From the NCBI RefSeq assembly GCF_029626025.1, contig NZ_JARUBF010000001.1, forward strand, positions 2,480,001 to 2,544,000: DNA of 64,000 nucleotides, written 5' to 3'. Numbering within the stretch: the stretch's first letter is position 1; every line of letters begins with the position of its first letter. The notes beneath the pieces are model-generated. The model searched no databases. It was not told the origin of the DNA and worked only from the letters and a program-made list of their open reading frames with translations. Below are positions 4,176 to 39,506 of this stretch, in pieces. This DNA comes from Solwaraspora sp. WMMD406 (GTDB lineage: Bacteria > Actinomycetota > Actinomycetes > Mycobacteriales > Micromonosporaceae). A program made the translations under genes and the position numbers.

Positions 4176-4179
4176 CCCG

Positions 4180-4704: not shown

Positions 4705-4718
4705 CCGGGGCCGCCGTC

Positions 4719-5024: not shown

Positions 5025-5044
5025 CCATCATGAAGGGGTCGCAG

Positions 5045-19486: not shown

Positions 19487-20050
19487 GTGCATTCAGATCC
19501 GGCGGCCGACGAGACGACCATGACGTTGGAGGCGTACGCCGACACCATCCTGCCGGGCGAGAAGCGGTGGCCCGGCGACCGGGCGATCGCGGGCGTTTCC
19601 GTCGGCGGTGGGGCCGTGGTCTGCGGTGCGTTGGAGGTGTTGCGCGGTGAGGAAGGCGGCATGGCGCCCCTGCTGGAGGAGCTGGCTGTCGGCCTCAACG
19701 ACCACGCAGGCGAGTACGCCGAGACCCACGGCCGCACTCTCGACGACGACGTCCCGCCCTTCGTCGCCCTCGACTATCCCGACCGGGTCGCGCTGATCCA
19801 GCAGCTCACGTCGGTCGACTTCGAGGAACGCGAACTGTGGATCAGTTTGGCGATGTTCAACACCATCGCCTTTGACGCGGCCTCGCACATGCACACCACC
19901 GACGCGTTCGCCCAGGGGCATCCAGGCCTGTTGACACTCGGCTACTTTCCGCCGGACCAGGATGGCCTCTGGCGTTTTCCTGCCTATTCGTACGGGCGGG
20001 CCTTGGCCGATCTGCACCCCGACACCACCCCCTCAGGGAGCCCGGCATGA
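19487..20050 (+). CDS. DUF5987 family protein, probable GMC oxidoreductase partner
   Basis: This 187-aa protein begins with MTLEAYADTILPGEKRWPGD after a short leader, a pattern like the small gamma subunit (subunit 3) of gluconate-2-dehydrogenase-type enzymes. It continues with helices (PPFVALDYPDRVALIQQL) and an aromatic C-terminus (LGYFPPDQDGLWRFPAYSYG). No signal peptide is evident. GTG 19487 follows GGGAGG by 6 nt. The stop overlaps the GMC start by 4 bp (ATGA), so the two are probably subunits of one enzyme (inference). Confidence 0.7.
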   Translation: MHSDPAADETTMTLEAYADTILPGEKRWPGDRAIAGVSVGGGAVVCGALEVLRGEEGGMAPLLEELAVGLNDHAGEYAETHGRTLDDDVPPFVALDYPDRVALIQQLTSVDFEERELWISLAMFNTIAFDAASHMHTTDAFAQGHPGLLTLGYFPPDQDGLWRFPAYSYGRALADLHPDTTPSGSPA

Positions 20051-21702
20051 CGAGTATCGAATCAACTGACGTCCTGGTGATCGGAAGTGGATTCGGCGGA
20101 GCGATCACCGCATATCATCTGGCGGCCGGGGGCGCTCGCGTCGTCATGCTGGAACGCGGTCCGTGGCTGACCGGACCGGAATTCGACCAGGATTTCAAGT
20201 TCGGTTCGTCGACGACCCGGGCGTTCGACTTCGTCATCGGTGACGGCATGAGCGTGCTCGGCGGCAACTGCGTCGGCGGCGGCAGCGTGGTGTACTTCGC
20301 GGCGATGCCGCGCGCCCCCCGGTTCACTTTCGACCGCCAGGGCAGCATCGGGCGCCGGATGTGGCCGGCGGCCATCTCCCGCGACACGCTCGACCCATGG
20401 TACGACCGGGTTGCCGAGGCGTTGCCGATCACGCAGACGACCTGGGACAAGGTGCCCTACGCCGGTGGCCTGTTCGCCGCCGCCTGCCGGCACTCCGGCC
20501 GGACGGCCAACCCGGTCCCGGTGGCGATCGACGACGCCAAGTGCACCAACTGCAACTGGATGATGTCCGGGTGTCGCTTCGACGCGAAACGGTCGCTGCT
20601 GCTCAACTATCTGCCGGCGGCGATCAGCCACGGTACCCAGATCCGGCCCATGCACGAGGTACAGCATCTGACCCGCAACGACGACGGCGGCTACCGGGTG
20701 CATTACTCGGTGATCGACGACGTCGACTACCGGGTCGAGGTCGGCAGTGGAGCGATCGACGCCAAGATCGTCATCGTGGCCGCCGGTGCCGCCGCGACCC
20801 CGGTGATCCTGCAGCGGTCCGCACCGCATCTGGGCACCATGCCGGCAGCGGTCGGCCGCTACTTCTCCGGCAACGGCGAACGGCTCAACACCGCGATCAT
20901 GAACGAGGACCGGATCCGTGACGTGCTCGGCCTTTCCCGCGCCGAAGGGATCGCCTACCAGGCGTACCAGATTGGTAAGGGGCCCACCGTCGCCAACTGG
21001 GACCGGTTGGACGGATCGCTCCCCGAATACCACCGCTACTCGCTGGAGCAGCTCTATTTTCCGCCCGGCTTCGGCACGATCCTCGCCCAGGTGCCGGACG
21101 CGACCGGTCCGACCTGGTTCGGTGCCGAAAAGAAGGAGATCCTGCGGCGCTGGCAGTCGTGGCTGACGGTGTTCACGATGAGCGAGGACGACAACGAGGG
21201 CGAATTCGGCACCCCGCCGCCGTCGGGCAACGCGGTACGGCTGTCCCAGCAGATGCTGTCCCGGGGGCCGCTGCGGTACCGGCCGACCGCCAATACGCTG
21301 CTCGGCTGGCAGAAGTCCGACGCCGAGGTGCGCGACATCCTGGAGCGCGACGGCCTGTCGCGGGTGCTGCCGTGGACCAACGAGCTGGTGGGCGCCTACA
21401 CGGTGCACCCGCTCGCGTCATGTCGCATCGGCGACGACCCGGCGACGTCGGCCTTGGACGATCGGCACGAGCTTCGGGGCCATCCGGGAATCTTCGTCAC
21501 CGACGGTTCGGCGGTGCCCGGCGCGTTGACCGTCAACCCGGCGATGACGATCAGCGCCCTCGCAGAGCGGGCGGTTCCCGGCATCGTCGAGGCCGCCCGG
21601 CAACGGGGTGTCCAGGTGACCTACGGCGCGCCGGCACCGAGCGGGGAGACCGCCGGCCGTCGCGGTGTGCTTCAGCACGCGGTCACCTCGACCGCCCACT
21701 GA
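20047..21702 (+). CDS. GMC family FAD-dependent oxidoreductase
   Basis: This 551-aa flavoprotein has the FAD-binding Rossmann motif GSGFGGAITAYHLA (about 13-26) and the GMC box GGNCVGGGSVVYF near 75. A CTNCNWMMSGCRFDAKRS segment near 160-178 is typical of cholesterol/gluconate-dehydrogenase-like members, and the C-terminal catalytic part has HPLASCRIG and TDGSAVPGALTVNPAMTIS. It would oxidise an alcohol and pass electrons to O2 or a partner. Enediyne loci commonly carry an oxidoreductase of this kind (E9-like, from memory). With the DUF5987 partner it forms the left arm of the enediyne locus. Confidence 0.8.
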   Translation: MTSIESTDVLVIGSGFGGAITAYHLAAGGARVVMLERGPWLTGPEFDQDFKFGSSTTRAFDFVIGDGMSVLGGNCVGGGSVVYFAAMPRAPRFTFDRQGSIGRRMWPAAISRDTLDPWYDRVAEALPITQTTWDKVPYAGGLFAAACRHSGRTANPVPVAIDDAKCTNCNWMMSGCRFDAKRSLLLNYLPAAISHGTQIRPMHEVQHLTRNDDGGYRVHYSVIDDVDYRVEVGSGAIDAKIVIVAAGAAATPVILQRSAPHLGTMPAAVGRYFSGNGERLNTAIMNEDRIRDVLGLSRAEGIAYQAYQIGKGPTVANWDRLDGSLPEYHRYSLEQLYFPPGFGTILAQVPDATGPTWFGAEKKEILRRWQSWLTVFTMSEDDNEGEFGTPPPSGNAVRLSQQMLSRGPLRYRPTANTLLGWQKSDAEVRDILERDGLSRVLPWTNELVGAYTVHPLASCRIGDDPATSALDDRHELRGHPGIFVTDGSAVPGALTVNPAMTISALAERAVPGIVEAARQRGVQVTYGAPAPSGETAGRRGVLQHAVTSTAH

Positions 21703-21764
21703 ACAGGGCCGAGTCCACCACTCAGGACGGCCGTCGCGGCGGTGGTCCAGGTAGGCAGGAGCGC

Positions 21765-22841: not shown

Positions 22842-22915
22842 CCTTTCTGGCTGACCTTTCTGGCTGACCTTTCTGGCTGACCTTTCTGGCTGACCTTTCT
22901 GGCTGACCTTTCTGG
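22838..22915. repeat. six tandem copies of a 13-bp unit
   Basis: CTGACCTTTCTGG is repeated six times without change, beginning at the stop codon of the AhpD-like gene. It ends 20 bp before a hairpin. It is a recent slippage-type expansion. Confidence 0.95.
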
Positions 22916-22935
22916 CTGGCGTCGACCCTTCGTAA

Positions 22936-22974
22936 TGGTGCTGCCCGGGCGACTCGACCGCCCGGGCAGCACCA
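22936..22974. terminator. bidirectional hairpin terminator
   Basis: TGGTGCTGCCCGGGCG pairs perfectly with CGCCCGGGCAGCACCA around the loop ACTCGAC. It lies between the convergent AhpD-like and SDR genes, 4 bp beyond the SDR stop. Confidence 0.8.
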
Positions 22975-22978
22975 ATGC

Positions 22979-24055
22979 CTACCGGGGGCTGACGTCCGGT
23001 TCGGGAGTGGAGTGCGGATCGCCGAGTGCGTCGGCGACTCTGGCGTCGCCGGCCTGCCGATCGGATATCGCCCCGGTGGCGTGCAGCCACCGGACGGTGT
23101 CGGCCATCGACTGGCGTAGCGGAATCGCCGGCTGGTCGAGCAGATCGTCGGTTGCCGACCCGTCCACCGGGCGGCCGATCCGGCAGATGTAGACCGCACC
23201 GTACTGCACCGGCAACGGGGTGGGGAGCAGCCGCTGAGCGGCGCTGGCCAGCCGACCGACGGGCAGCACCGCCGCCGACGGCAGCACGATGGTCGGTAGC
23301 CGCCGGCCGGTGACCTCCCGCAAGGTGCCGACGAACTCCCTGGTGGAGACGTAGCGTCCGGGGGCGAAGTAGCGTCGAGGTCCTTGGCCGGCGCGCAGTA
23401 GCGCGGCGTGCAGGCGGGCGACGTCGCGTACGTCGCCGACCGGGAAACCGCCGTCGGGCCAGATCGGCAGCAGACCCCGGAGGACGTCGCGGACCCTGCT
23501 GGCCTGGTCGCCGAGGTGCGGATCGTGTGGACCGAGCGAGGCCATCGGATAGGTGATGACGACCGGCGCGCCGTCCGCCTGGTGCTGCCGGGCGATCGTG
23601 TCGGCCCGTGCTTTGGTCCGCAGGTACGTTTCCCGAGGTGCCCCGACCGGCGACTGTGGGGTGATCGACGTGTCCCGGCTGGGCAGCAGCGCGCCGAAGG
23701 TCGACACGTGCACGATGGGATCCGCTCCGGCCCGCCGGGCGCGGGACAGGACGATCTCCGTACCTCGGATGTTGCTGGCCGCCATCGAGCGGTGTCGGCG
23801 GGAGTCGAAGCTGTAGACCGACGCGGCGTGCAGCACGGCGTCGCATCCGTCGACTGCCGCGTCGACGGTACTCGGGTCGGTGACGTCACCGACCACCACC
23901 TCGACGTCGTCGGCCGGTACGCCGAGCGGCACCAGCGCGGGCGCGAGCCGACGTGGATCGCGGACCAGCAGCCGCAGGCGGTGGCCGGCGTGATGGATGG
24001 CGGCCGCCGAGTGCGCGCCGATGAAGCCGGTACCTCCGGTCACCAGGACAAGCAC
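22979..24055 (-). CDS. NAD-dependent epimerase/dehydratase (extended SDR)
   Basis: This 358-aa protein has an N-terminal NAD(P)-binding TGGTGFIGAHS (G-x2-G-x2-G, residues 6-15), the VVGDVTDPS adenine contact and HAASVYSFDS. The catalytic Ser region is VHVSTFGALLPS, and a Y-x3-K motif lies in ETYLRTKARAD. It acts on a hydroxyl or keto substrate, perhaps as a 3-beta-hydroxysteroid-dehydrogenase-like or dihydroflavonol-reductase-like enzyme. It is divergent from the AraC gene and convergent with the GMC operon. Its place inside the enediyne locus suggests a tailoring role (inference). Confidence 0.8.
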   Translation of the reverse strand: MLVLVTGGTGFIGAHSAAAIHHAGHRLRLLVRDPRRLAPALVPLGVPADDVEVVVGDVTDPSTVDAAVDGCDAVLHAASVYSFDSRRHRSMAASNIRGTEIVLSRARRAGADPIVHVSTFGALLPSRDTSITPQSPVGAPRETYLRTKARADTIARQHQADGAPVVITYPMASLGPHDPHLGDQASRVRDVLRGLLPIWPDGGFPVGDVRDVARLHAALLRAGQGPRRYFAPGRYVSTREFVGTLREVTGRRLPTIVLPSAAVLPVGRLASAAQRLLPTPLPVQYGAVYICRIGRPVDGSATDDLLDQPAIPLRQSMADTVRWLHATGAISDRQAGDARVADALGDPHSTPEPDVSPR

Positions 24056-25015: not shown

Positions 25016-25750
25016 GTGGAAGGTGCAATCGAGAAGGCTGCGGTGCGGGCTATCGACTACATGCGAGCGCATCTCGGTGAGCAGTTGACCGTTGATGACA
25101 TGGCCCGCGCGGCGCTGTTCAGCAAGTTCCATTTCTCCAGGACGTTCCAGCAGGTCACCGGAGTCTCGCCGGGCCGCTTCCTCTCCGCGTTGCGGATCCA
25201 GCGGGCCAAGCAGCTCCTGCTCGCCACGTCGATGAACGTGGCGGACATCAGCATCCAGGTGGGGTACGCCAGCGTCGGCACCTTCAGCTCAAGATTTTCC
25301 CGAAGTGTCGGACTCTCGCCGACTGCCTTCCGACGCACCGGGGGCTACGCCATAGATGTTCCGACAGTCGATCGGATGGTGCTGGCCCGCCGGATGACCG
25401 GCGGAGCACGGGGCCGCATCCGGGCGCTCGACGCCGGGCAGAGTGGGCCGGTGTTCATCGGTCTCTTCCCGGAGCGGATCCCCGAAGGGCGTCCGGCTCA
25501 GTGCGCGGTCTTGGACGGGCCGGGTGAATACCGGCTGGACAAAGTCCCGGTCGGCGCCTGGTATCTGCTCGCCCACTGGATGACCGACCCCGACGACCCC
25601 GGTGCGGCCTGGGTGGGCAGCTGTGGCCCGCTGGTCGTACGGCCCGGCATGGTGGTCGAGGCGGACGTCCAACTCGACCCGATGACCAGCCTGCATCCGC
25701 CGGTTCTGCTCGCCCTGCTGGACATCCGGCAGGACGCGCTGGCCGCCTGA
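25016..25750 (+). CDS. AraC-family transcriptional regulator
   Basis: This 244-aa protein has its AraC/XylS DNA-binding pair at the N-terminus (about 5-105). Helix-turn-helix 1 lies in LTVDDMARAALFSKFHFSRTF, quoted as LTVDDMARAALFSKFH then FSRTF. Helix-turn-helix 2 lies in NVADISIQVGYASVGTFSSR. A C-terminal beta-rich sensor (about 130-244) with PGEYRLDKVPVGAWYL follows. This order is the reverse of classic AraC. GTG 25016 is preferred because GGGAG lies 5 nt before it; ATG 25004 is in frame without a site. It directly precedes the enediyne core genes and is the only regulator in the locus, so it is probably pathway-specific. Confidence 0.85.
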   Translation: MEGAIEKAAVRAIDYMRAHLGEQLTVDDMARAALFSKFHFSRTFQQVTGVSPGRFLSALRIQRAKQLLLATSMNVADISIQVGYASVGTFSSRFSRSVGLSPTAFRRTGGYAIDVPTVDRMVLARRMTGGARGRIRALDAGQSGPVFIGLFPERIPEGRPAQCAVLDGPGEYRLDKVPVGAWYLLAHWMTDPDDPGAAWVGSCGPLVVRPGMVVEADVQLDPMTSLHPPVLLALLDIRQDALAA

Positions 25751-26173
25751 CCCGACCGAACACGTATATGTGACGGGGGAGTGGGCGTCGCCCTCGGTGT
25801 CATTCGTCCGACGACGGACGGCACCGACACGGCTGGCGCCCTTGTCCTGTGGCCCTGACGCCGTTGTCCGTGGGCTGACCTCGTTCGTGGGCTGCCCTTG
25901 TCCGTAGGTCCCGACACCGCCGCCGACCCGGCATAACGGAATCCGGCCGGCATTCCGGAATTCGGCCGGCGTCACGCGTACGGGCCAGCACCGCGCATCC
26001 CGTATCGCGCTCGTCGCATCTCGCGTGACGCGGCGCGCGCCCGATGGTACCGGTCTTCCTTCTCCTCTCTGAAACATGCCGAGTCACGGCAATCTGCGAG
26101 AACAATACCGCCACCGGCGCTGGCAGTATTCACGAATATCGCTGGTGTCCGTTGATCTAAGTGGGGGATAGAA
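25751..26173 (+). promoter_or_regulatory. control region upstream of the enediyne core operon
   Basis: This 423-bp gap holds a direct repeat, AATCCGGCCGGC (25940-25951) and AATTCGGCCGGC (25959-25970), 19 bp apart. The 10-bp palindrome ATTCCGGAAT (25952-25961) lies between them. AraC-type regulators bind direct repeats of about this spacing. A lower-GC stretch (26080-26160) before the TTG start probably carries the promoter. Confidence 0.4.
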
Positions 26174-27148
26174 TTGGCCACACTCTGGCGCGCCATGCGC
26201 CGCCAAATCCTCACACCAAAGGTGTCCGAGACCACGTTGGAAACCCGTGGTTTCTACGAGAAGGACGCCGCCGCCCGAGATGTTCTCGAGACTGTCGGCC
26301 AGTCCTTTCTCGCCGGCTACGCGGCTGCGATGGAAGCCCCTACGCCCGAAGCCGTAGCCGGTCCCCTCGACGACCTTCCGGTGCGGTTCCGGGGCTTCGC
26401 CTACGAGGGTGCGGCCATGGCGTTCGGTGTCCTGGACGGTCTCCCCTTCGGGGGTGGCGGCCGGCTGGCCCGATTCCTCGACGGTCCCGGATCCGCGCAC
26501 GTCTACATGGCCTACGTCGGCATCGGCTGGGCGATGGCCCGGCTGCCCCGGTTCCGTTGGTCCACCCTGGCCGCGCCGGACCCGCTGCTGCGCTGGCTCG
26601 CGCTCGACGGCTATGGGTTCCACCAAGCCTACTTCCACACCGACCGGTACGTCGGCGGACAGTACGAGGAGACGAACTTCCCGTGGCCGGTCGGCGGCCC
26701 CCAGTGGTACGCGGCGCGCGCGATCGATCAGGGGGTGGGCCGGGCGATGTGGTTCGTCGGCGGCACCGACCCGGACCGGGTGGCCGGACTGATCGACGCC
26801 TTCCCGGCCCGCCGCCGGGCCGACCTGTACAGCGGTGCCGGGCTTGCCGCCACCTACGCCGGTGGTGCCAGCGAGGACGAACTGCGCCGGTTCTGGGAGC
26901 GCGCCGGCGACCATCGGCCGCAGGTCGCCCAGGCCAGCGCCTTCGCCGCCGAAGCCCGGATCCGGGCCGGGCTGCTCGTACCGCACACCGCGCTGGCCAC
27001 CGAGGTCTTCTGCGGCATGTCACCGGCAGACGCCGCCGAGGTCAGCCGACGGTCCCGCCCGGACGTCGCGGCCCGCAGTCAATTGCCGTCCTACGAGATC
27101 TGGCGGGAACGCATCGCCAGCGAGTTCGTGTCCCTTGGGAGGTGTTAG
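26174..27148 (+). CDS. E3: enediyne biosynthesis protein E3 (DUF1702 family)
   Basis: This 324-aa protein is of the DUF1702/UnbL type found in every enediyne locus next to the PKS. Recognisable parts are FRGFAYEGAAMAFGVLDGL (about 75-95), YMAYVGIGWAMARLP, DGYGFHQAYFHTDRYV and the GLAATYAGGAS segment. The biochemical role is unproven; it is thought to help convert the nascent polyene to the enediyne core. A TTG start at 26174 is set by GTGGGGG 6-12 nt upstream. The E4 gene follows 4 bp after the stop. It opens the core operon. Confidence 0.92.
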   Translation: MATLWRAMRRQILTPKVSETTLETRGFYEKDAAARDVLETVGQSFLAGYAAAMEAPTPEAVAGPLDDLPVRFRGFAYEGAAMAFGVLDGLPFGGGGRLARFLDGPGSAHVYMAYVGIGWAMARLPRFRWSTLAAPDPLLRWLALDGYGFHQAYFHTDRYVGGQYEETNFPWPVGGPQWYAARAIDQGVGRAMWFVGGTDPDRVAGLIDAFPARRRADLYSGAGLAATYAGGASEDELRRFWERAGDHRPQVAQASAFAAEARIRAGLLVPHTALATEVFCGMSPADAAEVSRRSRPDVAARSQLPSYEIWRERIASEFVSLGRC

Positions 27149-27152
27149 TTCC

Positions 27153-29153: not shown

Positions 29154-29158
29154 CCACG

Positions 29159-30160
29159 ATGACCACGACCACTCTCGATCAGCCGCGCACCGCGCCACGC
29201 CACGACCCGAAGGTCACCACGGCGCTGCGACGCTTCGCCATCTCCATCTCCGTGTTCAACATCCTCGGCTACACCGTGCTCGGGTTCGAGCAACCCTGGA
29301 TCTGGCCGTTCATCGCCCTGGCCACCGCCTACAGCATCGAGATCGGCCTGGAGGTACTGGGCGCCCGCTCCGAGGGCCGCGCGCCGCGCTTCCTCGGCAA
29401 CGGCGTCCGGGGCCTGGTGGAGTTCCTCTACCCGGCACACATCACCGCTATCGCGGTCAACATGCTGACCTACGTCAACGACCAGGTCTTCGCGATGATG
29501 TTCGGCGTCGCTGTCGCCATCGGTGCCAAGTGGGTGCTGCGCGCCCCGGTACGGGGCAAGCTGCGGCACTACATGAACCCGTCCAACTTCGGGATCATGG
29601 TGATCCTGGTCGTCTTCCCGTGGGCCAGCATCGCGCCGCCGTACCACTTCACCACCAACGTCGACGGCATCATCGACGTGGTGATCCCGCTGGCGATCAT
29701 CACCCTCGGCACCATGCTCAACGCCAAGCTGACCGGCCGGATGTGGCTGATCGCCGCCTGGCTGAGCGTCTTCGCGCTGCAGTCGATCGTCCGAGGCGTC
29801 ATCCTCGACACCTCGATCATCGGCGCGCTCGCCACGATGACCGGTGTCGCCTTCGTACTGTTCACCAACTACATGATCACCGACCCGGGCACCACCCCGT
29901 CCAAGCCGGCCTCGCAGATCGCCTTCGGCGGCGGGGTGGCCCTGGTCTACGGCCTGCTCACCGGTGCCGGCATCGCGTACGGCCTGTTCTTCGCCACCGC
30001 CGCCGTCTGCGCGATCCGGGGCGGCTTCCTCTGGTCGGTACACATCGTCAACAAGGTGCGCGAGGAACGGGAAGCGGCGATACCCGTCTCCCCGGCCGTC
30101 GAGGCCACCCCGCCGGCCGCCGCGCCGTCGTCGAACACGAAGGAGGTGGTGGTGGCATGA
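29159..30160 (+). CDS. E5: enediyne biosynthesis protein E5 (UnbU, RnfD-like membrane protein)
   Basis: This 333-aa membrane protein has about ten helices. The RnfD/NqrB-like segments MNPSNFGIMVILVVFPW and TNYMITDPGTTPSKP are present; the latter contains the region where flavin is attached in RnfD relatives. With E3 and E4 it belongs to the invariant cassette and may move electrons across the membrane (family-based inference). ATG 29159 is favoured, since GTGAGG lies 8 nt upstream; GTG 29150 overlaps the E4 stop. Its stop overlaps the PKS start as ATGA, giving translational coupling. Confidence 0.92.
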   Translation: MTTTTLDQPRTAPRHDPKVTTALRRFAISISVFNILGYTVLGFEQPWIWPFIALATAYSIEIGLEVLGARSEGRAPRFLGNGVRGLVEFLYPAHITAIAVNMLTYVNDQVFAMMFGVAVAIGAKWVLRAPVRGKLRHYMNPSNFGIMVILVVFPWASIAPPYHFTTNVDGIIDVVIPLAIITLGTMLNAKLTGRMWLIAAWLSVFALQSIVRGVILDTSIIGALATMTGVAFVLFTNYMITDPGTTPSKPASQIAFGGGVALVYGLLTGAGIAYGLFFATAAVCAIRGGFLWSVHIVNKVREEREAAIPVSPAVEATPPAAAPSSNTKEVVVA

Positions 30161-33100
30161 CCAGGATCGCCGTCGTCGGCATGGCCTGCCGCTATCCGGA
30201 CGCCACGTCACCACGTGAACTCTGGGAGAACGCGCTCGCCGGCCGCCGGGCGTTCCGCCGCCTCCCCGACGTGCGGATGCGGCTGGACGACTACTGGGAC
30301 GCCGACCCCGCCACCCCGGACCGGTTCTACGCCCGCAACGCCGCCGTCGTCGAAGGCTACGAATTCGACCGTATCGCCTACAAGGTCGCCGGCAGCACCT
30401 ACCGATCCACCGACCTGACCCACTGGCTGGCCCTGGACGTCGCCGCCATGGCGCTGGCCGACGCCGGTTTCCCGATGGCTGAAGGGCTGCCCCGCGAACG
30501 CACCAGCGTGGTCGTCGGCAACAGCCTCACCGGCGAGTTCTCCCGGGCCAACCAGATGCGGCTGCGCTGGCCGTACGTGCGGCGGATGGTCGCCGCCGCG
30601 CTCAAGGAGCAGGACTGGGACGACGAACAGCTGGCGACGTTCCTGGCTGACCTGGAGACCAGCTACAAGGCGCCGTTCCCGGCGATCGACGAGGACACCC
30701 TGGCCGGTGGGCTCTCCAACACCATCGCCGGTCGGATCTGCAACCACTTCGACCTCAAAGGCGGCGGGTACACTGTCGACGGTGCCTGCTCGTCGTCGCT
30801 GCTGTCCGTCGCCACCGCCTGCAAGACGTTGCTCGACGGTGAGGCCGACGTGGCGATCGCCGGCGGCGTCGACCTGTCCATCGACCCGTTCGAGATCGTC
30901 GGGTTCGCCAAGACCGGCGCGTTGGCCCGGGGCGAGATGCGGGTCTACGACAAGGGTTCCAACGGGTTCTGGCCCGGCGAGGGCTGCGGCATGGTCGTGC
31001 TGATGCGCGAACGCGACGCGGTCGAAGCCGGCCACCGCAGCTACGCGACCATCGCCGGCTGGGGCATCTCCTCCGACGGCAAGGGTGGCATCACCCGCCC
31101 CGAGATCAGCGGCTACCAGCTCGCGCTGCGCCGGGCGTACGACCGGGCCGGTTTCGGCATCGACACCGTCGGCCTGTTCGAAGGCCACGGCACCGGGACG
31201 GCCGTCGGTGACACCACCGAACTCAAAGCGCTGACCCTGGCCCGGCGGGCCGCCGACGCACGGGCACCCCGCGCCGCGATCAGCTCCATCAAGGGCATGA
31301 TCGGGCACACCAAGGCCGCCGCCGGCGTCGCCGGTCTGATCAAGGCCGCGCTGTCGGTGCACCACGAGGTGCTGCCGCCGGCGATCGGCTGCGTCGACCC
31401 GCACGACGAACTCACCCGCGACGACGCGATGCTGCGGGTACTGCGGCAGGCCGAACCGTGGCCGACCGAGGTGCCGGTGCGCGCCAGCGTCACCGCGATG
31501 GGCTTCGGCGGCATCAACACCCACGTGGTGCTGGAGAAACGCGAACCCCGGCTGCGGGCCCGGCTGGACAGCCGGACCCGCTCGCTGGCCACCTCCGGGC
31601 AGGACGCCGAACTGCTGGCCGTCGACGCGTTCTCCCTGGCCGAACTGCGCGACCGGCTGCAGCGCCTGATCGACTTCGTGCCGACCGTGGCGTACGCCCA
31701 ACTCGCCGACCTGGCCGCCACCCTGCACCGCGAGCTGCGGGACCTGCCGTACCGGGCCGCCGTCGTGGTCACCTCACCGGAGGACGCGCACCGGCAGCTG
31801 ACCCGGATCATCGACGCGGTCGACGCCGGCGACACCCGGCTGCTCGCCGCCGACGGACGGGCCTTCCTCGGCTACGTCAGCGGGCCGGGCCGGATCGGTT
31901 ACCTCTTCCCCGGCCAGGGATCCGGGCGGGGCACCAGCGGCGGGGCGCTGCGCCGCCGGTTCGTCGAAGCGGACCAGGTGTACCGGCGGGCGGCGCTGCC
32001 GGTGACCGGCGACATGGTCGCCACCGACGTCGCCCAGCCCCGGATCGTCACCGGCTCCATGGCCGGTCTGACCGTGCTCGGCAACCTCGGCCTGGAAGCC
32101 ACCGTCGCGGTCGGCCACAGCCTCGGCGAGATCGCCGCCCTGCACTGGGCGGGCGCCATCGACGAGGACACCCTGCTGCGGATCGCCCGGGTCCGGGGCC
32201 GCACCATGAGCGAACACGCCTCGTCCGGCACCATGGCCAGCGTCAGCGCCGCCCCGGACGCCGTCGACCCGCTGATCGCCGGACGGCCGGTGGTGATCGC
32301 CGGCTACAACGGCCCGCAGCAGACGGTCGTCGCCGGCCCGGTCGACGAGATCGAGGCGGTCTGCCAGGCCGCCCGGCGCTCCGGCGTGGCCGCCACCCGG
32401 CTGGCCGTGTCGCACGCGTTCCACTCGCCGCTGGTCGCCGCCGCGGCCGACGCGTTCGGCAAGCGGCTCGTCGGGGAACGGCTCACCCCGGTCGCCCGTA
32501 CGGTGATCAGCACCGTGACCGGCGACGCGCTGCCCGCCGAGACCGACCTGCCGGCCCTGCTGCACCGGCAGATCACCGACCCGGTGCTGTTCGCCCAGGC
32601 GGCCACCATCGCCGCCAAGGACGTCGACCTGCTCGTCGAGGTCGGCCCCGGCCGGGTGCTCAGCAACCTCGTCGCGCAGATCACCGACGTGCCGGCCTTC
32701 GCCCTCGACACCGACGACCAGTCGCTGGTCGGACTGCTGCGCATCGTCGCCGGCGCCTTCGTCGTCGGTGCCGGCAGCATCCACAGCGGACTGTTTCACG
32801 GCCGGCTCACCCGCAACCTCGCCGTCGGCACCGAGTTCAAGTTCTTCACCAACCCGTGCGAATCCGCGCCGACCGTACCGGCCTCCCTCGTCGCCGTGGC
32901 GGCACGGCCCGGCGCCGGTGCCGGCACCGACACCGAGGCACCGACCGGCGGCGGGCCGGCCAGCACCGTCGCCGACGGCGCCGAAACCAGCCTGGAGCTG
33001 CTGCGCCGGCTCGCCGCCGAACGCGCCGAACTTCCGGTGGAGATGGTCCGCGAGGACAGCCTGCTCCTCGACGACCTGCATCTGAGCTCGATCACCGTCG

Positions 33101-35964
33101 GCCAACTGGTCAACCAGGCGGCCGCCCAGCGGGGCATCGCCGCCAGCGCCACCCCGACCAACTTCGCCACCGCCACCCTCGCCCAGCTCGCCGAAGCACT
33201 CGACGAACTCAGCACCACCGGCCAGGGCGAGGAGCGCGGCACCGCCGCCGTGGCCGGAGCCGCGGTCTGGGCGCGCGCCTTCCAGATCGACTACGACCTG
33301 GTCGCGGCACCGGCCGCACCGGCCGCACCGGGCGGTGCCGGCCCGGCCGGGACCTGGCAGGTGTACGCCCGCGACGACCATCCGCTGGCCGAGCCCCTTC
33401 GGCTGGCTCTGGAACAGGCCGGTGTCGGCAGCGGGGTGCTGGTCTGCCTGTCGGCCGGCAGCACCGAAGCGGAACTCGAACTCGCCCTGCGGGCGGCCAA
33501 GGCGGTTCTGAGCGGCACCCACGGCGACCGGTTCGTCCTCGTCCAGCAGGGCCGGGGAGCCGCCGGGCTGGCCAAGACGCTGCGCCTGGAAGCCCCACAG
33601 GTACGGGTCACGGTGCTCGACGTACCGCTGATCCGGGAAGCCCTGCCCTGGGTCTGCGCCGAAGTCGCCGCCACCGACGGCTTCACCGAGGCCCGCTACG
33701 ACGCCGACGGCGCGCGCCGGGTGCCGGTACTGCGCCCCATGCCGGTCCGGCCGGCGCGCACCGAAGCGGCGCTCGGCTCCGATGACGTGCTGCTGGTCAC
33801 CGGCGGCGGCAAGGGCATCACCGCCGAATGCGCGCTGGCGTTGGCCGGCGACAGCGGTGCCCGGCTGGCGGTGCTCGGCCGATCCGACCCGGCCGACGAC
33901 CAGGATCTGGCCACCAACCTGCGGCGGATGCGCGACAGTGGAGTGACGGTCCGCTACCTGCGGGCCGACGTGACCGACGCCGGGCAGGTCGCTAACGCCG
34001 TCGCCGAGGTGGTACGGGAATGGGGTCCGGTCACCGGCGTGCTGCACGGCGCCGGCCGCAACGAGCCGGCCGCGCTGACCAACCTGGACATGGCCCGGTT
34101 CCGGGCCACCTTCGCCCCCAAGATCGACGGGCTGGACGCCGTCCTCGACGCCGTCGACCCGCAGGCGATGCGGCTGCTGGTCACCTTCGGCAGCATCATC
34201 GGCCGAGCCGGGCTGCACGGCGAAGCGCACTACGCGACCGCCAACGAATGGCTCGCCGCCCGGACCGCGTCCTTCGGCGAGCAACATCCGCAGTGCCGGG
34301 CCATCTGCATGGAATGGTCCGTCTGGTCCGGCGTCGGTATGGGCGAACGCCTGTCGGTCGTCGAGACACTGCACCGCGACGGCGTCATTCCGATCTCGCT
34401 CGACGACGGGGTGGCCCTGATGCGCCGGCTCGTCGTTGACCCGCAGGTGCCGCCGGTCGTGGTGATCAGCGGGCGGACCACCGGCATCGACACCGTCGCC
34501 TACGACCTGCCCGAACTGCCGCTGCTGCGGTTCGTCGACAAACCACTGGTCCACTACCACGGAGTCGAACTGGTCAGCGAGACCATCCTCGACCCCGGCG
34601 GCGACCTCTACCTCAACGACCACCGGCTGGACGGCAACCTGCTGTTCCCCGCCGTGTTCGGCATGGAAGCCATGGCCCAGGTGGCGACCGCCGTCACCGG
34701 CGCCGACACCGTACCCCGTATCGAACAGGCCGAGTTCATCCGGCCGATCGTGGTCCCCCCCGACGGCAGCACCCCCATCCGGGTCGCCGCCGTCGTCACC
34801 GACGACGACACCGTCGAGGTCGCCATCCGCAGCGCCGAGACCAGCTTCGCCGCCGACCACTTCCGGGCCACGCTGCGCTTCACCGACGACGCCGCCCCCG
34901 CCGGAGCACCCGACCAGGTCGCCGACGACCTGCCGGTGGTGCCGCTCGACCCGGCCCGTGACCTGTACGCCGACACCATGTTCCAAGGGCCCCGGTTCCA
35001 GCGGCTGCGCCGCTACCACCGGGCCGCCGCCCGACACATCGACGCCGACGCCGAAGCCGTACCGCAGACCGCGTGGTTCGCCGGCTACCTGCCGGCCGAC
35101 CTGCTCCTCGGCGACCCCGGCCTGCAGGACACGCTGATGCACGCCAACCAGGTCTGCGTGCCGGACGGCACCCTGCTGCCCGCCGGCATCGACCGGATCC
35201 ACCCCGGCGGCCGGCGGCTGACCGGCCCCGGCGACTTCCGGTTCTGCGCCAGCGAACGGAGCCGGGACGGCGACACCTACGTCTACGACATCGCCGTCCG
35301 CGACGGCGACGGCACCGTGGTCGAACGGTGGGAAGGTCTGCGGCTGCGGGCGGTACGCAAGAAGGGCGGCGCCGGCCCCTGGGTCGCGCCGCTGCTCGGC
35401 TCCTACCTGGAACGGTCGGTGCAGGACCTGCTCGGTGGCGACACCGCCGTCGTCGTCGAACCCGGACCGGACGCCGACGAACCCGCGGTACGCCGGACCC
35501 GTACCGCGCTGGCCGCCGGCCGGACCATCGGAGCGCCGGTGACCGTCGACCACCGGCCGGACGGGCGTCCGGAACTGGCCGACCGGGCGATCTCCGCCGC
35601 CCACGGCGCCGGAGTCACCCTCTGCGTCACCGGCAGCGGCCCGCTCGGCTGCGACGTCGAACCGGTGGCGCAGCGCTCCGCCGCCGACTGGGCCGGCCTG
35701 CTCGGCGGACACCTGCCGCTGGCCGAACTGCTCGCCACCGAACTCGGCGAAAGCCTCGACACCGCCGCGACCCGGGTATGGACCGCCATCGAATGCCTGC
35801 AGAAGGTCGGCCGGCCCCAGCCCGTACCGCTGACCCACCTGGCCGACGGACCCGTCGGCTGGACGATCCTCGGCAGCGGGGGGATGCGGATCGCCTCCCT
35901 CGTCACCTCGCTGCGCGACCACGCGGGCCCGGTGGCGTTCGCCGTGCTCGTCGAAGGGCGGTGA
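30157..35964 (+). CDS. pksE: iterative type I enediyne polyketide synthase (PKSE)
   Basis: This 1935-aa single-module PKS has the enediyne domain order. KS is at about 1-460, with C211 in DGACSSS, H344 in EGHGTG and KGMIGHTKAAAG. AT is at about 500-900, with S655 in GHSLGE. ACP is at about 945-1020, with S978 in LHLSSITVG. KR is at about 1208-1440 (TGGGKGI, HYATANEW). DH is at about 1475-1720 (H1489 in NDHRLDGNLLFP). A C-terminal phosphopantetheinyl transferase is at about 1740-1935 (GCDVE at 1831-1835, WTAIECLQKVG). It would build a C15/C16 polyene from malonyl-CoA and activate its own ACP. Length and self-contained PPTase are typical of PKSE. ATG 30157 follows AAGGAGG and overlaps the E5 stop. 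Confidence 0.96.
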   Translation: MTRIAVVGMACRYPDATSPRELWENALAGRRAFRRLPDVRMRLDDYWDADPATPDRFYARNAAVVEGYEFDRIAYKVAGSTYRSTDLTHWLALDVAAMALADAGFPMAEGLPRERTSVVVGNSLTGEFSRANQMRLRWPYVRRMVAAALKEQDWDDEQLATFLADLETSYKAPFPAIDEDTLAGGLSNTIAGRICNHFDLKGGGYTVDGACSSSLLSVATACKTLLDGEADVAIAGGVDLSIDPFEIVGFAKTGALARGEMRVYDKGSNGFWPGEGCGMVVLMRERDAVEAGHRSYATIAGWGISSDGKGGITRPEISGYQLALRRAYDRAGFGIDTVGLFEGHGTGTAVGDTTELKALTLARRAADARAPRAAISSIKGMIGHTKAAAGVAGLIKAALSVHHEVLPPAIGCVDPHDELTRDDAMLRVLRQAEPWPTEVPVRASVTAMGFGGINTHVVLEKREPRLRARLDSRTRSLATSGQDAELLAVDAFSLAELRDRLQRLIDFVPTVAYAQLADLAATLHRELRDLPYRAAVVVTSPEDAHRQLTRIIDAVDAGDTRLLAADGRAFLGYVSGPGRIGYLFPGQGSGRGTSGGALRRRFVEADQVYRRAALPVTGDMVATDVAQPRIVTGSMAGLTVLGNLGLEATVAVGHSLGEIAALHWAGAIDEDTLLRIARVRGRTMSEHASSGTMASVSAAPDAVDPLIAGRPVVIAGYNGPQQTVVAGPVDEIEAVCQAARRSGVAATRLAVSHAFHSPLVAAAADAFGKRLVGERLTPVARTVISTVTGDALPAETDLPALLHRQITDPVLFAQAATIAAKDVDLLVEVGPGRVLSNLVAQITDVPAFALDTDDQSLVGLLRIVAGAFVVGAGSIHSGLFHGRLTRNLAVGTEFKFFTNPCESAPTVPASLVAVAARPGAGAGTDTEAPTGGGPASTVADGAETSLELLRRLAAERAELPVEMVREDSLLLDDLHLSSITVGQLVNQAAAQRGIAASATPTNFATATLAQLAEALDELSTTGQGEERGTAAVAGAAVWARAFQIDYDLVAAPAAPAAPGGAGPAGTWQVYARDDHPLAEPLRLALEQAGVGSGVLVCLSAGSTEAELELALRAAKAVLSGTHGDRFVLVQQGRGAAGLAKTLRLEAPQVRVTVLDVPLIREALPWVCAEVAATDGFTEARYDADGARRVPVLRPMPVRPARTEAALGSDDVLLVTGGGKGITAECALALAGDSGARLAVLGRSDPADDQDLATNLRRMRDSGVTVRYLRADVTDAGQVANAVAEVVREWGPVTGVLHGAGRNEPAALTNLDMARFRATFAPKIDGLDAVLDAVDPQAMRLLVTFGSIIGRAGLHGEAHYATANEWLAARTASFGEQHPQCRAICMEWSVWSGVGMGERLSVVETLHRDGVIPISLDDGVALMRRLVVDPQVPPVVVISGRTTGIDTVAYDLPELPLLRFVDKPLVHYHGVELVSETILDPGGDLYLNDHRLDGNLLFPAVFGMEAMAQVATAVTGADTVPRIEQAEFIRPIVVPPDGSTPIRVAAVVTDDDTVEVAIRSAETSFAADHFRATLRFTDDAAPAGAPDQVADDLPVVPLDPARDLYADTMFQGPRFQRLRRYHRAAARHIDADAEAVPQTAWFAGYLPADLLLGDPGLQDTLMHANQVCVPDGTLLPAGIDRIHPGGRRLTGPGDFRFCASERSRDGDTYVYDIAVRDGDGTVVERWEGLRLRAVRKKGGAGPWVAPLLGSYLERSVQDLLGGDTAVVVEPGPDADEPAVRRTRTALAAGRTIGAPVTVDHRPDGRPELADRAISAAHGAGVTLCVTGSGPLGCDVEPVAQRSAADWAGLLGGHLPLAELLATELGESLDTAATRVWTAIECLQKVGRPQPVPLTHLADGPVGWTILGSGGMRIASLVTSLRDHAGPVAFAVLVEGR

Positions 35965-35970
35965 ACGAAC

Positions 35971-36408
35971 GTGTCTGACTACTTCGAGTACCGCCACGTG
36001 GTCGGCTTCGAGGAAACCAACATGGTCGGCAACGTCTACTACGTCAACTACCTCCGGTGGCAGGGCCGGTGCCGCGAGATGTTCCTCAAGCAGCACGCCC
36101 CGGACGTCCTGGTCGACCTGCAGGCCGACCTGAAGCTGTTCACCCTGCGAGTGGACTGCGAGTTCTTCGCCGAGATCACCGCGTTCGACGAACTCGCCAT
36201 CCGGATGCGGCTGGTCGACCTGGCCCAGACCCAGGTCGAGTTCAGCTTCGACTACGTACGGCTGGACGCCGGCGGCGAGCTGCCGGTGGCCCGGGGACGG
36301 CAGCGGGTCGCCTGCATGCGCGGACCCAACACCCGGACCGTTCCGACCCGGGTACCCGAGGCGTTGCTGCGCGCCCTGGCCCCGTACAGCGCCCTGGCGC
36401 GGGTGTAG
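35971..36408 (+). CDS. E10: enediyne thioesterase E10 (4-hydroxybenzoyl-CoA thioesterase fold)
   Basis: This 145-aa hot-dog thioesterase has the E10 signature YFEYRHVVGFEETNMVGNVY (quoted to 20 residues) followed by NYLRWQGRCREMFL. It hydrolyses the polyene from the PKS acyl carrier domain; with PKSE alone it releases heptaene products in known systems. It starts 6 bp after the PKS stop with a GTG. Length is exactly that of the family. It is cytoplasmic and probably tetrameric. Confidence 0.94.
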   Translation: MSDYFEYRHVVGFEETNMVGNVYYVNYLRWQGRCREMFLKQHAPDVLVDLQADLKLFTLRVDCEFFAEITAFDELAIRMRLVDLAQTQVEFSFDYVRLDAGGELPVARGRQRVACMRGPNTRTVPTRVPEALLRALAPYSALARV

Positions 36409-36432
36409 CCACGGCCGTTGAAGGAGGACGAC

Positions 36433-36969
36433 GTGAACGTCGATCATCAGCCATCGCACGAGCTGCTGGATCCCACGCTGCTGCGTCAGGTGTTCGGCAC
36501 CTTCGCCACCGGCGTCACGGTGCTGACCGTCGGAGGCGCGCAGCCGCACGGGATGACCGCCAACTCCTTCACCTCCGTGTCGCTCGACCCGCCGCTGGTG
36601 CTGGTCTGCGTCAACCGGCAGGCGGTCATGCACGACTCGCTCGTGGCGGCGGGCACCTTCGGGATCTCGGTACTCGCCGCCGACCAGGAAAAGGTGGCCC
36701 GACATTTCGCCAACCGGTGGCGGCCGCTCGGCCGGGCCCAGTTCGACGACGTCGACTGGCAGCCCGGCCGGGTCACCGGCGCGCCCCTGATCGACCGGGC
36801 CGTGGCCCACTTCGAGTGCGGGCTGTGGCGCACCTATGACGGCGGTGACCACAGCATCTTCACCGGTCACCTGCTCTCGGCCCAGCAGTACAGCGACGAC
36901 GAACCGGTGCTGTTCCTGCACGGGCGGTTCCGCCAGCTCAGTCCGGAGCGAAAGGAGGTACCGACGTGA
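36433..36969 (+). CDS. E6: flavin reductase-like FMN-binding protein (E6-like)
   Basis: This 178-aa FMN-binding split-barrel flavin reductase shows FATGVTVLTVGG, then HGMTANSFTSVSLDPPLVLV, then FGISVLAADQ and VAHFECGLW. It would use NAD(P)H to supply reduced flavin to a monooxygenase. AAGGAGG at 36421-36427, 5 nt before GTG 36433, decides the start over in-frame codons upstream. It overlaps the P450 start (GTGA). Homologues follow the core in nine-membered enediyne loci (from memory). Confidence 0.85.
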   Translation: MNVDHQPSHELLDPTLLRQVFGTFATGVTVLTVGGAQPHGMTANSFTSVSLDPPLVLVCVNRQAVMHDSLVAAGTFGISVLAADQEKVARHFANRWRPLGRAQFDDVDWQPGRVTGAPLIDRAVAHFECGLWRTYDGGDHSIFTGHLLSAQQYSDDEPVLFLHGRFRQLSPERKEVPT

Positions 36970-38330
36970 CCACCACCCCCATCACCGCGGTCCCACCGGG
37001 GCCGACCGGCGCGGCGTCGCTGGGCACCCTGTGGAAGTTCGGCCGCGACCGACTCGGCGTGATGAGCTCGTCGGCGAGCCGCCACGGCGACGCGGTACGG
37101 CTGGCCACCTGGCCGTGGCCGTTCTACTTCTTCAACGACCCGGAGCACGCCAAACACGTGCTTGCCGACAACAACCAGAACTACCACAAGGGCATCGGCC
37201 TGGTGCACGCCCGCCGGGCGCTCGGCGACGGGCTGCTGACCAGCGAAGGCGAACTGTGGCGGGAGCAGCGGCGGGCGATGCAGCCGGTGTTCCAGGCCAA
37301 ACGGATCGCCGGCCAGGCCGGCGTGGTTGCCGAAGAGGCCGCCGGGCTGGTCGAACGGTTACGCGCCCGGGCCGGCGGCCCCCCGGTGGACGTCGTACGG
37401 GAGGCCACCGCGCTGACCCTCGGCGTCCTCGGCCGTACGCTGCTCGACACCGACCTGGCGGAGTACTCCTCGATCGGGCAGTCGTTCGAAGCCATGCAGG
37501 ACCAGGCCATGTTCGAACTGGCCACGATGAGCATGGTCCCGATGTGGGTGCCACTGCCGCAGCAGCTGCGGTTCCGCCGGGCCCGGCGGGAGCTGCAGAC
37601 CATCGTGGACCAGATGGTCGCCGACCGGACCCGACGCGACGGTCCCGGCGGCGGCGGTGACGACGCGCTGTCCCGACTCATCCAGTCCACCCGCAAGGAG
37701 GCCGACCCCCGCCGTGGCCAGCAGCGGATGCGCGACGAGCTGGTCACCTTGCTGCTCGCCGGACACGAGACGACGGCCAGCACGCTGAGCTGGAGCTTCT
37801 ACCTGATCGACCAGCATCCGCAGGTACGTCAGCGGTTGCACGAGGAAGCCGTCGACGTGCTCGGCGACCGACTGCCCACGTACGAGGACCTGCGCCGGCT
37901 CACCTACACCTCGATGGTGATCGAGGAGGTGATGCGACTGTATCCGCCGGTGTGGATGCTCTCCCGCATCGCGCAGGGCCCCGACACCATCGGCGGGTAC
38001 GAGGTACCGGCCGGGGCGAACGTGCTGATCTGCCCGTACACCCTGCACCGCCATCCCCGCTTCTGGCCGGACCCGGAGCGGTTCGACCCGGAGCGCTTCG
38101 ACCCGGGCCGCCCCACCGACCGCCCCCGGTACGCCTACGTGCCGTTCGGCGCGGGTCCCCGGTTCTGCGTCGGCAACCACCTCGGCATGATGGAGGCCGT
38201 CTTCGTGCTCGCCCTGGTCAGCCGCGAGCTGCGGCTGATCAAGCCGACCCGTTACCGGGTCGTGCCGGAGCCCATGCTGTCGCTGCGGATCCGGGGCGGG
38301 CTGCCGATGCGGGTCGAACCCGCGCGCTGA
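36966..38330 (+). CDS. E7: cytochrome P450 (E7-like)
   Basis: This 454-aa P450 has the I-helix motif AGHETTAS (about 265-272), the ExxR motif EEVMR (about 319-323), RFDPERF and the heme-binding FGAGPRFCVGNH with thiolate C401. The sequence around LLAGHETTASTLSW and the P-x-P-rich meander resemble the CYP102/CYP4-like class also seen for the enediyne E7 proteins. No signal or membrane anchor is present, so it is soluble and needs external redox partners. It ends the core operon and would oxygenate the polyene or enediyne core (inference). The hairpin at 38347 follows. Confidence 0.9.
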   Translation: MTTTPITAVPPGPTGAASLGTLWKFGRDRLGVMSSSASRHGDAVRLATWPWPFYFFNDPEHAKHVLADNNQNYHKGIGLVHARRALGDGLLTSEGELWREQRRAMQPVFQAKRIAGQAGVVAEEAAGLVERLRARAGGPPVDVVREATALTLGVLGRTLLDTDLAEYSSIGQSFEAMQDQAMFELATMSMVPMWVPLPQQLRFRRARRELQTIVDQMVADRTRRDGPGGGGDDALSRLIQSTRKEADPRRGQQRMRDELVTLLLAGHETTASTLSWSFYLIDQHPQVRQRLHEEAVDVLGDRLPTYEDLRRLTYTSMVIEEVMRLYPPVWMLSRIAQGPDTIGGYEVPAGANVLICPYTLHRHPRFWPDPERFDPERFDPGRPTDRPRYAYVPFGAGPRFCVGNHLGMMEAVFVLALVSRELRLIKPTRYRVVPEPMLSLRIRGGLPMRVEPAR

Positions 38331-38346
38331 GCCACGGCACGACAGA

Positions 38347-38380
38347 GTCGACCCCGGCGGCCAAGGCCGCCGGGGTCGAC
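38347..38380. terminator. bidirectional hairpin terminator of the core operon
   Basis: GTCGACCCCGGCGGCC pairs perfectly with GGCCGCCGGGGTCGAC around two bases (AA). It lies 17 bp past the P450 stop, between convergent genes. Confidence 0.85.
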
Positions 38381-38429
38381 GTCGTGGTGCGTCGTACCGT
38401 CGCAGGTGGTGTCGGCGGCGCGGCGGCGG

Positions 38430-39506
38430 TCAGTGGGCCGGATGCGGTAGCGCGGCCGGCACCTGCCACCGACCGACCTGGCGGGCGGCCAGGAAGCTGG
38501 CCCACGCGGCCACCTCGACCAGTTGGCTGTCGTCAGGATGGTGGCGCCGGAACTCGTCGACCACCTCGGCGTCCACCTGGTACGAGGCGAGCGCGGTGAG
38601 CAACGCCAGCCGGGCAGCCGCCCGATCGGCGTCGGGCAGGCCGTCGATCAGGTCCTCGCACCACTGCCGGCTCAGCCCGGTCTCCTCACCCCGCCAGCGG
38701 GACAACCGGTTCTCCACCACGTCGCGCACCTGCGGGGAGACCGCCTGCCGCCCGACGGCGTCGAACGCGGCGTAGGCCCGGGCCACGGCGTCGGCGACGT
38801 TCGGATCGGCGGCGGCCCAGGCCGCGTCCGGCGGCAGTACGGCGGTCGGCAGCAGCGGCAGCGACCGTCCCGGCGTCGGCTCGTCGCGCAGCGCCGGATC
38901 GAGCCGTCGGCTGATCGCCCGCTTGAGCCGCCGGCGGGCCGGCGGATGCAGCCCCGGCGGCAGCAGGAAACTGGACAGGAAGACGTTCACCATCCGGGTC
39001 AGGTAGTGGAACGCGACCACGACACCGACGAGTTCCGGCAGCTCCGCCGCCGGGTACGGCGAACGGCTGGCCGGGTCGTCCGGCAGATGGGCTGCCCGGG
39101 CCCAGGCGACCAGTTCCCGTACCCGGGGATCGGCGACGTCGTCCGGCCGGTCGGCGACCACCGCTTCGGCGTCGTTCTCGTCCGCCAGCGCGTACATGCC
39201 GGTGCTGTGCATGTCCACGCAGTACGGGCAGATGTTGGCCACCGAGACGCCGGCCGCGACCGCTTCCTTCGCCAGTCGGTCGACCCGGCCGACGACCAGC
39301 AGCGGCTCCCGCATCAGCATCCAGAAGGCGCTGAGCGTCCGGGGGGCGGGGGAGTGCAGCAGCACCGGCGGGATGACCAGCCGCATCTCCTGCGCGCACT
39401 GGGCGTACACCTCGGCGACGCTGCCGGTCGCGGCCCCTTCCGGTACCGGGCGGACGTGACGCACCTGGCGTCCGACGACGGAGGCGACGACCCGTCGGAT
39501 GACCAT
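38430..39506 (-). CDS. AhpD/carboxymuconolactone-decarboxylase-like protein (copy 2)
   Basis: This 358-aa protein is a paralogue of the protein at 21765 over its full length. Shared landmarks are VIRRVV...VRHVRPV at the start, VLLHSPAP, the redox motif NICPYCVDMHST (C-x2-C-x3-H near 94-105), FHYLTRMVNVFL and TGLSRQWCEDLIDGLPDADR. A likely role is thiol-dependent peroxide reduction or another redox step on the locus product. It is divergent from egtA with a 306-bp gap. ATG 39506 is the only start that fits the paralogue's N-terminus; upstream frame extension is low-complexity. Confidence 0.75.
   Translation of the reverse strand: MVIRRVVASVVGRQVRHVRPVPEGAATGSVAEVYAQCAQEMRLVIPPVLLHSPAPRTLSAFWMLMREPLLVVGRVDRLAKEAVAAGVSVANICPYCVDMHSTGMYALADENDAEAVVADRPDDVADPRVRELVAWARAAHLPDDPASRSPYPAAELPELVGVVVAFHYLTRMVNVFLSSFLLPPGLHPPARRRLKRAISRRLDPALRDEPTPGRSLPLLPTAVLPPDAAWAAADPNVADAVARAYAAFDAVGRQAVSPQVRDVVENRLSRWRGEETGLSRQWCEDLIDGLPDADRAAARLALLTALASYQVDAEVVDEFRRHHPDDSQLVEVAAWASFLAARQVGRWQVPAALPHPAH

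Follow-up and report, generated by a model that had tools for sequence, protein, structure and literature searches.

The actinomycete Solwaraspora sp. WMMD406 harbors an enediyne-type biosynthetic locus in the stretch of DNA analyzed here, a 64-kb window (C1:2480001-2544000) of its 7.11-Mb source contig (C1, NZ_JARUBF010000001.1). Based on comparisons with the rest of the genome and with known clusters, we judge it probable that this strain encodes a nine-membered enediyne pathway divided between two loci, with core genes in the window and decoration genes on a distant island acting in trans. The pathway looks split because the core gene E2 and genes for sugar, aromatic-acid, and epoxide-opening steps sit 2.7 Mb away. 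The kind of system is known, but its arrangement, with E2 off-site, is unusual.

PMC5181780 defines the enediyne polyketide synthase (PKS) cassette as E3/E4/E5/E/E10, describes E2, the second DUF1702 protein, as exclusive to nine-membered enediyne clusters, and gives an R3 gene as the marker of ten-membered clusters. All five cassette genes are present in the window. An original prediction, made from the sequence without database searches, had called this a complete core cassette, which holds for the five-gene set but not for a nine-membered core, as E2 is absent. E3 is the sole DUF1702 match in the 64-kb window, and neither E2 nor a remnant of it was found there. The window locus alone therefore lacks the nine-membered marker, which is present elsewhere in the genome.

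The genome contains three DUF1702 genes: E3 in the window, C1:5204700-5205650, and C1:1677245. In a DUF1702 tree of 166 rows, the E2 clade (75 rows, support 100) contains both the 5.20-Mb protein and E2 of the C-1027 (sgc) cluster, which Streptomyces globisporus C-1027 carries on its plasmid SGLP1. The 5.20-Mb gene is intact, 60% identical to C-1027 E2 and at most 72% identical to its relatives, and is the only E2-clade gene of the genome, 2.70 Mb from the core. Among 250 sampled genomes of the family, 59 carry two or more strong DUF1702 copies (at least 383 bits, not sorted into E2 and E3), and the nearest pair on one contig lies within 30 kb in 56 of these. The remaining pairs are 65 kb, 107 kb, and 2.70 Mb apart, the last being the source genome, an extreme outlier. 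For further comparison, we used the best 80 of 131 named loci of the enediyne PKS (PKSE), with up to 10 kb of flank per side, and added the C-1027 plasmid to give 81; window proteins were mapped onto the loci at a query coverage of at least 40%, with PKSE matches of at least 45% identity. An E2-type DUF1702 gene occurs within the fetched flank in 70 of the 80 named loci; some of the ten others (L007, L030, L039, L053, L057, L059, L060, L065, L067, and L077) end at contig edges.

Faced with a window without recognizable decoration genes, the original prediction had suggested either a compact or unusual enediyne or further genes located elsewhere. A Pfam scan of all 53 called window genes (E ≤ 0.001) likewise found no nucleotide-sugar, apoprotein, or START/CalC-type family. 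The remaining genes appear to be those of a strain-specific island surrounding E2 (C1:5156752 to approximately 5211736), and the compact or unusual product is disfavored because decoration-type genes exist in the genome. By Pfam and NCBIfam, the island encodes a DegT aminotransferase, an NDP-sugar C-methyltransferase (PF08421/PF08484), and an NDP-sugar dehydrogenase, together with an NAD-dependent epimerase with a UDP-xylose-synthase-like match and an EryCIII-like glycosyltransferase. Its aryl genes encode a 1787-aa KS-AT-DH-KR-ACP iterative PKS, an O-methyltransferase-family protein, and a dihydroxybenzoate/salicylate-AMP-ligase-like enzyme, which scores 547 bits against TIGR02275, below the 724-bit cut-off, and has a salicylate-AMP ligase as its best match in the Protein Data Bank (PDB). 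The island epoxide hydrolase matches PDB entries 5f4z (553 bits) and 4i19 (485 bits), with no other epoxide hydrolase exceeding 211 bits. Also present are a GMC enzyme, a class-III aminotransferase, an ABC transporter pair, a carrier protein, a stand-alone AMP-binding enzyme, an acyl-CoA-dehydrogenase-like protein (65% identical to a C-1027-plasmid protein), SnoaL-like proteins (three by reading, two scanned), a peroxiredoxin, an SCP2 protein, and an AraC paralogue assigned by similarity.

The island is enriched in genes typical of enediyne loci. Homologues near a PKSE in named records (at least 40% identity over 60% of the length, genes of at least 100 aa) were found for 15 of 39 island genes versus 4 of 204 other genes of the genome (Fisher p 2e-10), and three of these 4 are E3/E4/E5 paralogues. 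Excluding E2 and AraC, which were used to find the island, the count is 13 of 37. All near-PKSE counts are lower bounds because of the short flanks and the contig ends that cut some of them. The genes flanking the island lie approximately 6-15 kb apart in three congeners (G003, G006, and G005), and its right edge is at a Val-Cys-Gly tRNA array found in the same place in all three, which would be a typical integration hotspot. At the right end of the island (C1:5208952-5211736), TfuA-like and YcaO-like genes (the latter by reading) and a short peptide gene could represent a separate peptide-modification system.

The core locus extends from the DinB-like gene at 18191 to the AhpD-like gene ending at 39506; the ergothioneine genes egtA-egtD come after it (39855-44279). 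The gene identities and coordinates predicted originally were borne out by gene calling and family searches. In window coordinates, the features are as follows.

18191 to 19006, minus strand: DinB/mycothiol-isomerase-like gene in the E11 position (PF11716, 100 bits; 55% identical to the TIGR03084 gene of the C-1027 plasmid), outside the interval of the original prediction
19487 to 20050, plus strand: DUF5987 gene (PF19449) in the E8 position (Pfam, 275 bits)
20047 to 21702, plus strand: GMC/cholesterol-oxidase-like flavoprotein in the E9 position (Pfam; 75% identical to the C-1027-plasmid GMC)
21765 to 22841, plus strand: AhpD-like (CMD) protein with CxxCxxxH (TIGR00778, above cut-off)
22979 to 24055, minus strand: NAD-dependent epimerase/SDR (Pfam PF01370)
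about 25016 to 25750, plus strand: AraC-family regulator in an SgcR2-like position (Pfam; 48% identical to C-1027 AraC; groups with congener AraC)
25751 to 26221, no strand: putative rearrangement junction, from congener gene order (E3-E7 block inverted relative to G002, G003, and G006; E2 gone)
26222 to 27148, plus strand: E3 (DUF1702, PF08012, 436 bits; in the tree with congener E3, outside the E2 clade)
27213 to 29153, plus strand: E4 (ASPIC/UnbV PF07593 and FG-GAP by Pfam; 57% identical to its C-1027 counterpart)
about 29159 to 30160, plus strand: E5 (no Pfam match at E ≤ 0.001; 68% identical to its C-1027 counterpart, labelled RnfD-like)
30157 to 35964, plus strand: PKSE, the enediyne iterative polyketide synthase, 1935 aa (63% identical to C-1027 PKSE over 1941 columns; 80-81% to congeners)
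35971 to 36408, plus strand: E10 thioesterase (best PDB match 4i4j, an ACP-polyene thioesterase, 247 bits; CalE7 230; DynE7 135)
36433 to 36969, plus strand: E6-type flavin reductase (Pfam PF01613; 58% identical to a gene annotated SgcE6)
36966 to 38330, plus strand: E7-type cytochrome P450 (Pfam PF00067; 62% identical to its C-1027 counterpart)
38430 to 39506, minus strand: second AhpD-like protein with CxxCxxxH (TIGR00778, just over cut-off; adjoins E2 in three congeners)

E3, E4, E5, PKSE, E10, the flavin reductase, and the P450 share one strand, and every core gene has an open frame of normal length. The overlapping head-to-tail arrangement predicted originally is found in part: with the called starts, 4-base overlaps join only DUF5987/GMC, E5/PKSE, and flavin reductase/P450, and gaps of approximately 64, 6, and 24 bases separate E3-E4, PKSE-E10, and E10-flavin reductase. 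An alternative E5 start at 29150 would overlap E4. The predicted PKSE catalytic residues of the KS, AT, ACP, KR, and DH domains were confirmed among 88 aligned PKSEs. The KS Cys (C211) is present in 87 of 88, with one gap, and the columns of AT S655, ACP S977/S978, KR Y1359, and DH H1489 are fully conserved; conservation is poor in the C-terminal ~170 residues (PPTase region). This is the single PKSE of the genome, other matches being partial and mostly 28-40% identical. A tree of 88 proteins longer than 1500 aa, the phylogenetic check proposed with the prediction, places the window PKSE inside the enediyne clade with C-1027-type synthases. Together with the family matches, the C-1027 comparison, and the PDB match of E10, this placement bears out an enediyne-type locus.

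The C-1027 plasmid carries the same core families, and corresponding window proteins are 48-78% identical, with E10 at 78% and E3 at 58%. Its gene order is DUF1702, DUF1702, CRTAC1, RnfD-like, PKSE, SgcE6, P450, AraC, StrR-like, DUF5987, GMC, thioesterase, and TIGR03084. The two DUF1702 genes, E4, E5, and PKSE are thus consecutive there, whereas E2 lies 2.70 Mb from the core in the source strain. The PKSE and accessory core genes group with this named nine-membered cluster in comparisons run without a named ten-membered PKSE as outgroup. E2-containing PKSE clusters of other Micromonosporaceae (Salinispora, Catellatospora, Asanoa, and Micromonospora) hold the same core families and are linked where visible. 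Enediyne PKS loci of rare actinomycetes are also known from the t1pks-1 clusters of Phytohabitans, a genus with both nine- and ten-membered types predicted; in the available part of that account, the clusters described show no split arrangement (PMC7692728).

For each of the 14 genes at the core locus, other named records contain a homologue no more than 10 kb from a PKSE. Of the 81 loci, those with such a homologue number 79 for E3, 78 each for E10 and E6, 76 for E7, 74 each for E4 and E5, 67 for AraC, 62 each for DUF5987 and GMC, 54 and 48 for the first and second AhpD-like genes, 43 for DinB, and 12 for SDR. From these counts, the accessory genes appear to be mostly standard for enediyne loci. 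The original prediction had left them unassigned, a description that no longer fits most of them: AraC, DUF5987, GMC, and DinB-like genes match C-1027-plasmid genes at equivalent places, and that plasmid also has a counterpart of the AhpD-like genes at 40-41% identity. The SDR, which has no match there, lies near 12 of the 81 PKSEs.

Comparison with the genus suggests how this arrangement arose. Our sample comprised seven genomes, including three congeners (G002, G003, and G006) that share the window core with the source strain and three (G001, G004, and G005) with another PKSE type. The shared core occupies the same site between related flanking genes in all three of the former, with E2 adjoining E3 and the E3-E7 block in the opposite orientation to the flanks relative to the source strain; G003 matches most of the window. 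Around these cores lie other chromosomal genes, none of them for decoration. Because the congeners keep E2 beside E3, we infer that the source strain inverted its E3-E7 block, lost its own E2, and would now rely on the E2 delivered by the island. The other PKSE type (L119, L121, and L122) is a second enediyne-type locus, 55-56% identical, with one DUF1702 gene alongside; it contains E10, E6, E7, E3, SDR, AraC, and AhpD-like genes and no E2-type gene beside them.

The separation of core and decoration genes looks older than the source strain. An enediyne-type epoxide hydrolase (at least 470 bits) is encoded in all four genus genomes with this core, in every case at least 0.54 Mb away (nearest in G003), and in none of the three with the other PKSE type at E ≤ 1e-100. 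Of 280 genes (at least 100 aa) in the stretches surrounding the epoxide hydrolases of the congeners, 43 have near-PKSE homologues in named records. Among them are acyl-CoA-dehydrogenase-like, class-III aminotransferase, and GMC genes, typed by similarity to Pfam-typed island genes, and P450-, FAD-monooxygenase-, glycosyltransferase-, and ABC-like genes by reading. The island E2 clusters with Asanoa/Actinoplanes-type copies rather than with congener E2 (approximately unbiased (AU) test, p 0.0425, on 41 of the 75 E2 rows). The window AraC groups with congeners, and the island AraC falls elsewhere (70-row tree, G003 absent). These groupings away from the congeners are suggestive, and another enediyne lineage is therefore the probable source of the island. 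Next to the G003 core, the AraC gene (G003:C1:7532605-7532859) is called as 84 aa only and is possibly truncated.

In the proposed pathway, PKSE and E10 would make a polyene, and the other core proteins, with E2 supplied in trans from the island, would convert it to the nine-membered core. The island epoxide hydrolase may then prepare an attachment point by opening the core epoxide. A C-methyl amino-pentose-like sugar and a salicylate-type aryl acid would be added by enzymes of the island, in parallel with maduropeptin. The available description of the maduropeptin (mdp) system of Actinomadura madurae (PMC10951976) includes a sugar dehydrogenase, decarboxylase, C-methyltransferase, transaminase, and glycosyltransferase and an iterative aryl PKS, ligase, methyltransferase, and stand-alone adenylation enzyme with carrier, all paralleled on the island; this parallel is one of gene families against a published description, not of mdp sequences. 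There, mdp is described as one cluster, whereas two loci are proposed for the source strain.

Several observations weigh against a two-locus, nine-membered pathway. Its ring size rests on E2 and the grouping with C-1027 because the five-gene cassette is common to nine- and ten-membered enediynes, and the PKSE tree contained no named ten-membered PKSE. The E2 transfer rests on a modest AU test, in which the clade was picked after the tree had been seen. The island PKS, ligase, and glycosyltransferase may work toward a different product, and no regulatory motif common to core and island rose above the control. No resistance gene was identified, and the C-1027 apoprotein has no convincing counterpart in the source genome. 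The apoprotein family (PF00960) gave one partial match, at C1:1741901, with 24.1 bits (26.3 with frame neighbours) against a cut-off of 25; taken alone, the 330-aa frame at this site has no Pfam match. A chromoprotein apoprotein is not universal in nine-membered enediyne clusters. Unlinked epoxide hydrolases may also not be unique to this genus. In other genera, the gene lies approximately 15-25 kb from PKSE in G016, G021, and G024, the first and last with further weaker copies elsewhere, and 16-42 kb away in 13 plasmid-collection records among the matches listed (20 of 125; 15 of 58). Such linkage is common but not universal because G022 and G042 have no epoxide hydrolase at E ≤ 1e-100 and G015, G025, G026, and G057 have only weaker ones (349-407 bits), some unlinked (397 bits and 187 kb off in G026; 383 bits on another contig in G015).

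We considered three other explanations. The window core may be decaying after the loss of E2, giving a broken pathway or a polyene or aberrant product, with the island making an unrelated aryl-polyketide glycoside and carrying E2 and the epoxide hydrolase as remains of a second enediyne cluster. The loss of an E2 kept in three congeners, the grouping of island E2 and AraC away from congener copies, and an island gene set in which none of E3-E11 was recognized fit this account. We nonetheless think it unlikely: the core genes are all intact in length and frame, the island E2 is undamaged and in the E2 clade, the island supplies what the core is without, and three congeners pair intact cores with unlinked epoxide-hydrolase loci. 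It is less likely still that the core alone yields a compact, undecorated nine-membered (or other) enediyne to which the island is irrelevant. In favour of this, the three congener cores also lack flanking decoration genes, but E2 is missing from the window core and every genus genome with this core has an unlinked enediyne-type epoxide hydrolase gene. A contiguous cluster that only looks split through assembly error or contamination, reported at 2.27%, seems to us the least credible account. Both loci lie on one contig with conserved synteny on each side, a chromosomal context that argues against misassembly, and three further assemblies also have an unlinked epoxide hydrolase; the split is probably not an artefact. 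The two-locus nine-membered pathway thus remains our preferred interpretation.

Some features of individual proteins merit mention. Same-strand GMC neighbours accompany 64 of 66 DUF5987 genes, with a 4-base overlap in 59, so the two resemble a single functional unit in which DUF5987 is the likely partner of GMC (structure alignments covered 52 of 66 DUF5987 and 53 DUF1702 sequences). C166, C169, and C176 are present in 65 of 65 GMC homologues, and H454 and N497 in 64 of 65, with one gap; the invariant cysteines possibly form a metal or Fe-S site. The CxxCxxxH motif of the first AhpD-like protein is also present in all 75 homologues that are 300-400 aa long. The E11-position protein, whose name we presume from gene order, matches the mycothiol-dependent families MDMPI_N and MST, and the ergothioneine genes flank the opposite side of the locus; a thiol link between them is possible.

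Paralogues of the E4, E5, and E3 type at C1:1662126-1678207 (L106), and of the E5 and E3 type in congener G005 (L120), are intermixed with genes labelled by reading as selenocysteine-type and haloperoxidase-like; both sets are PKSE-free in the fetched stretch and could hint at a stand-alone function of these proteins. Three Lentzea loci (L054, L044, and L074) have a third, divergent DUF1702 gene with its own tree branch, at approximately 22.7 kb in the locus, on the opposite strand beside AhpD-like genes. Elsewhere in the window are a ring-hydroxylating dioxygenase operon (2751-5938; alpha, beta, Dabb, and glyoxalase-family genes), 93-98% conserved in three congeners and including the glyoxalase/bleomycin-resistance-family protein at 5030-5938; four consecutive minus-strand pectate-lyase genes (PF00544, 11133-17718); and an NRPS-type frame (condensation, carrier, and AMP-binding domains) that runs from 60550-63915 past the right end, with a 70-80% match in three congeners and a KS match beyond it at C1:2548518.

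More broadly, nine-membered enediyne biosynthesis may be modular across this genus, with a fixed core site and exchangeable, unlinked decoration islands. We put this forward tentatively, at somewhat below even chances; here, a foreign island E2 would have replaced the resident E2, so that the ring-size determinant came with the decoration genes. Enediyne genome mining relies on what surrounds the PKS cassette. If decoration genes are not linked to the core, clusters would be mislabelled as compact, incomplete, or of unknown ring size, and their chemistry missed. The natural separation of E2 from the cassette would also offer a direct genetic handle on the role of E2, with congeners that retain a resident E2 as the comparison.

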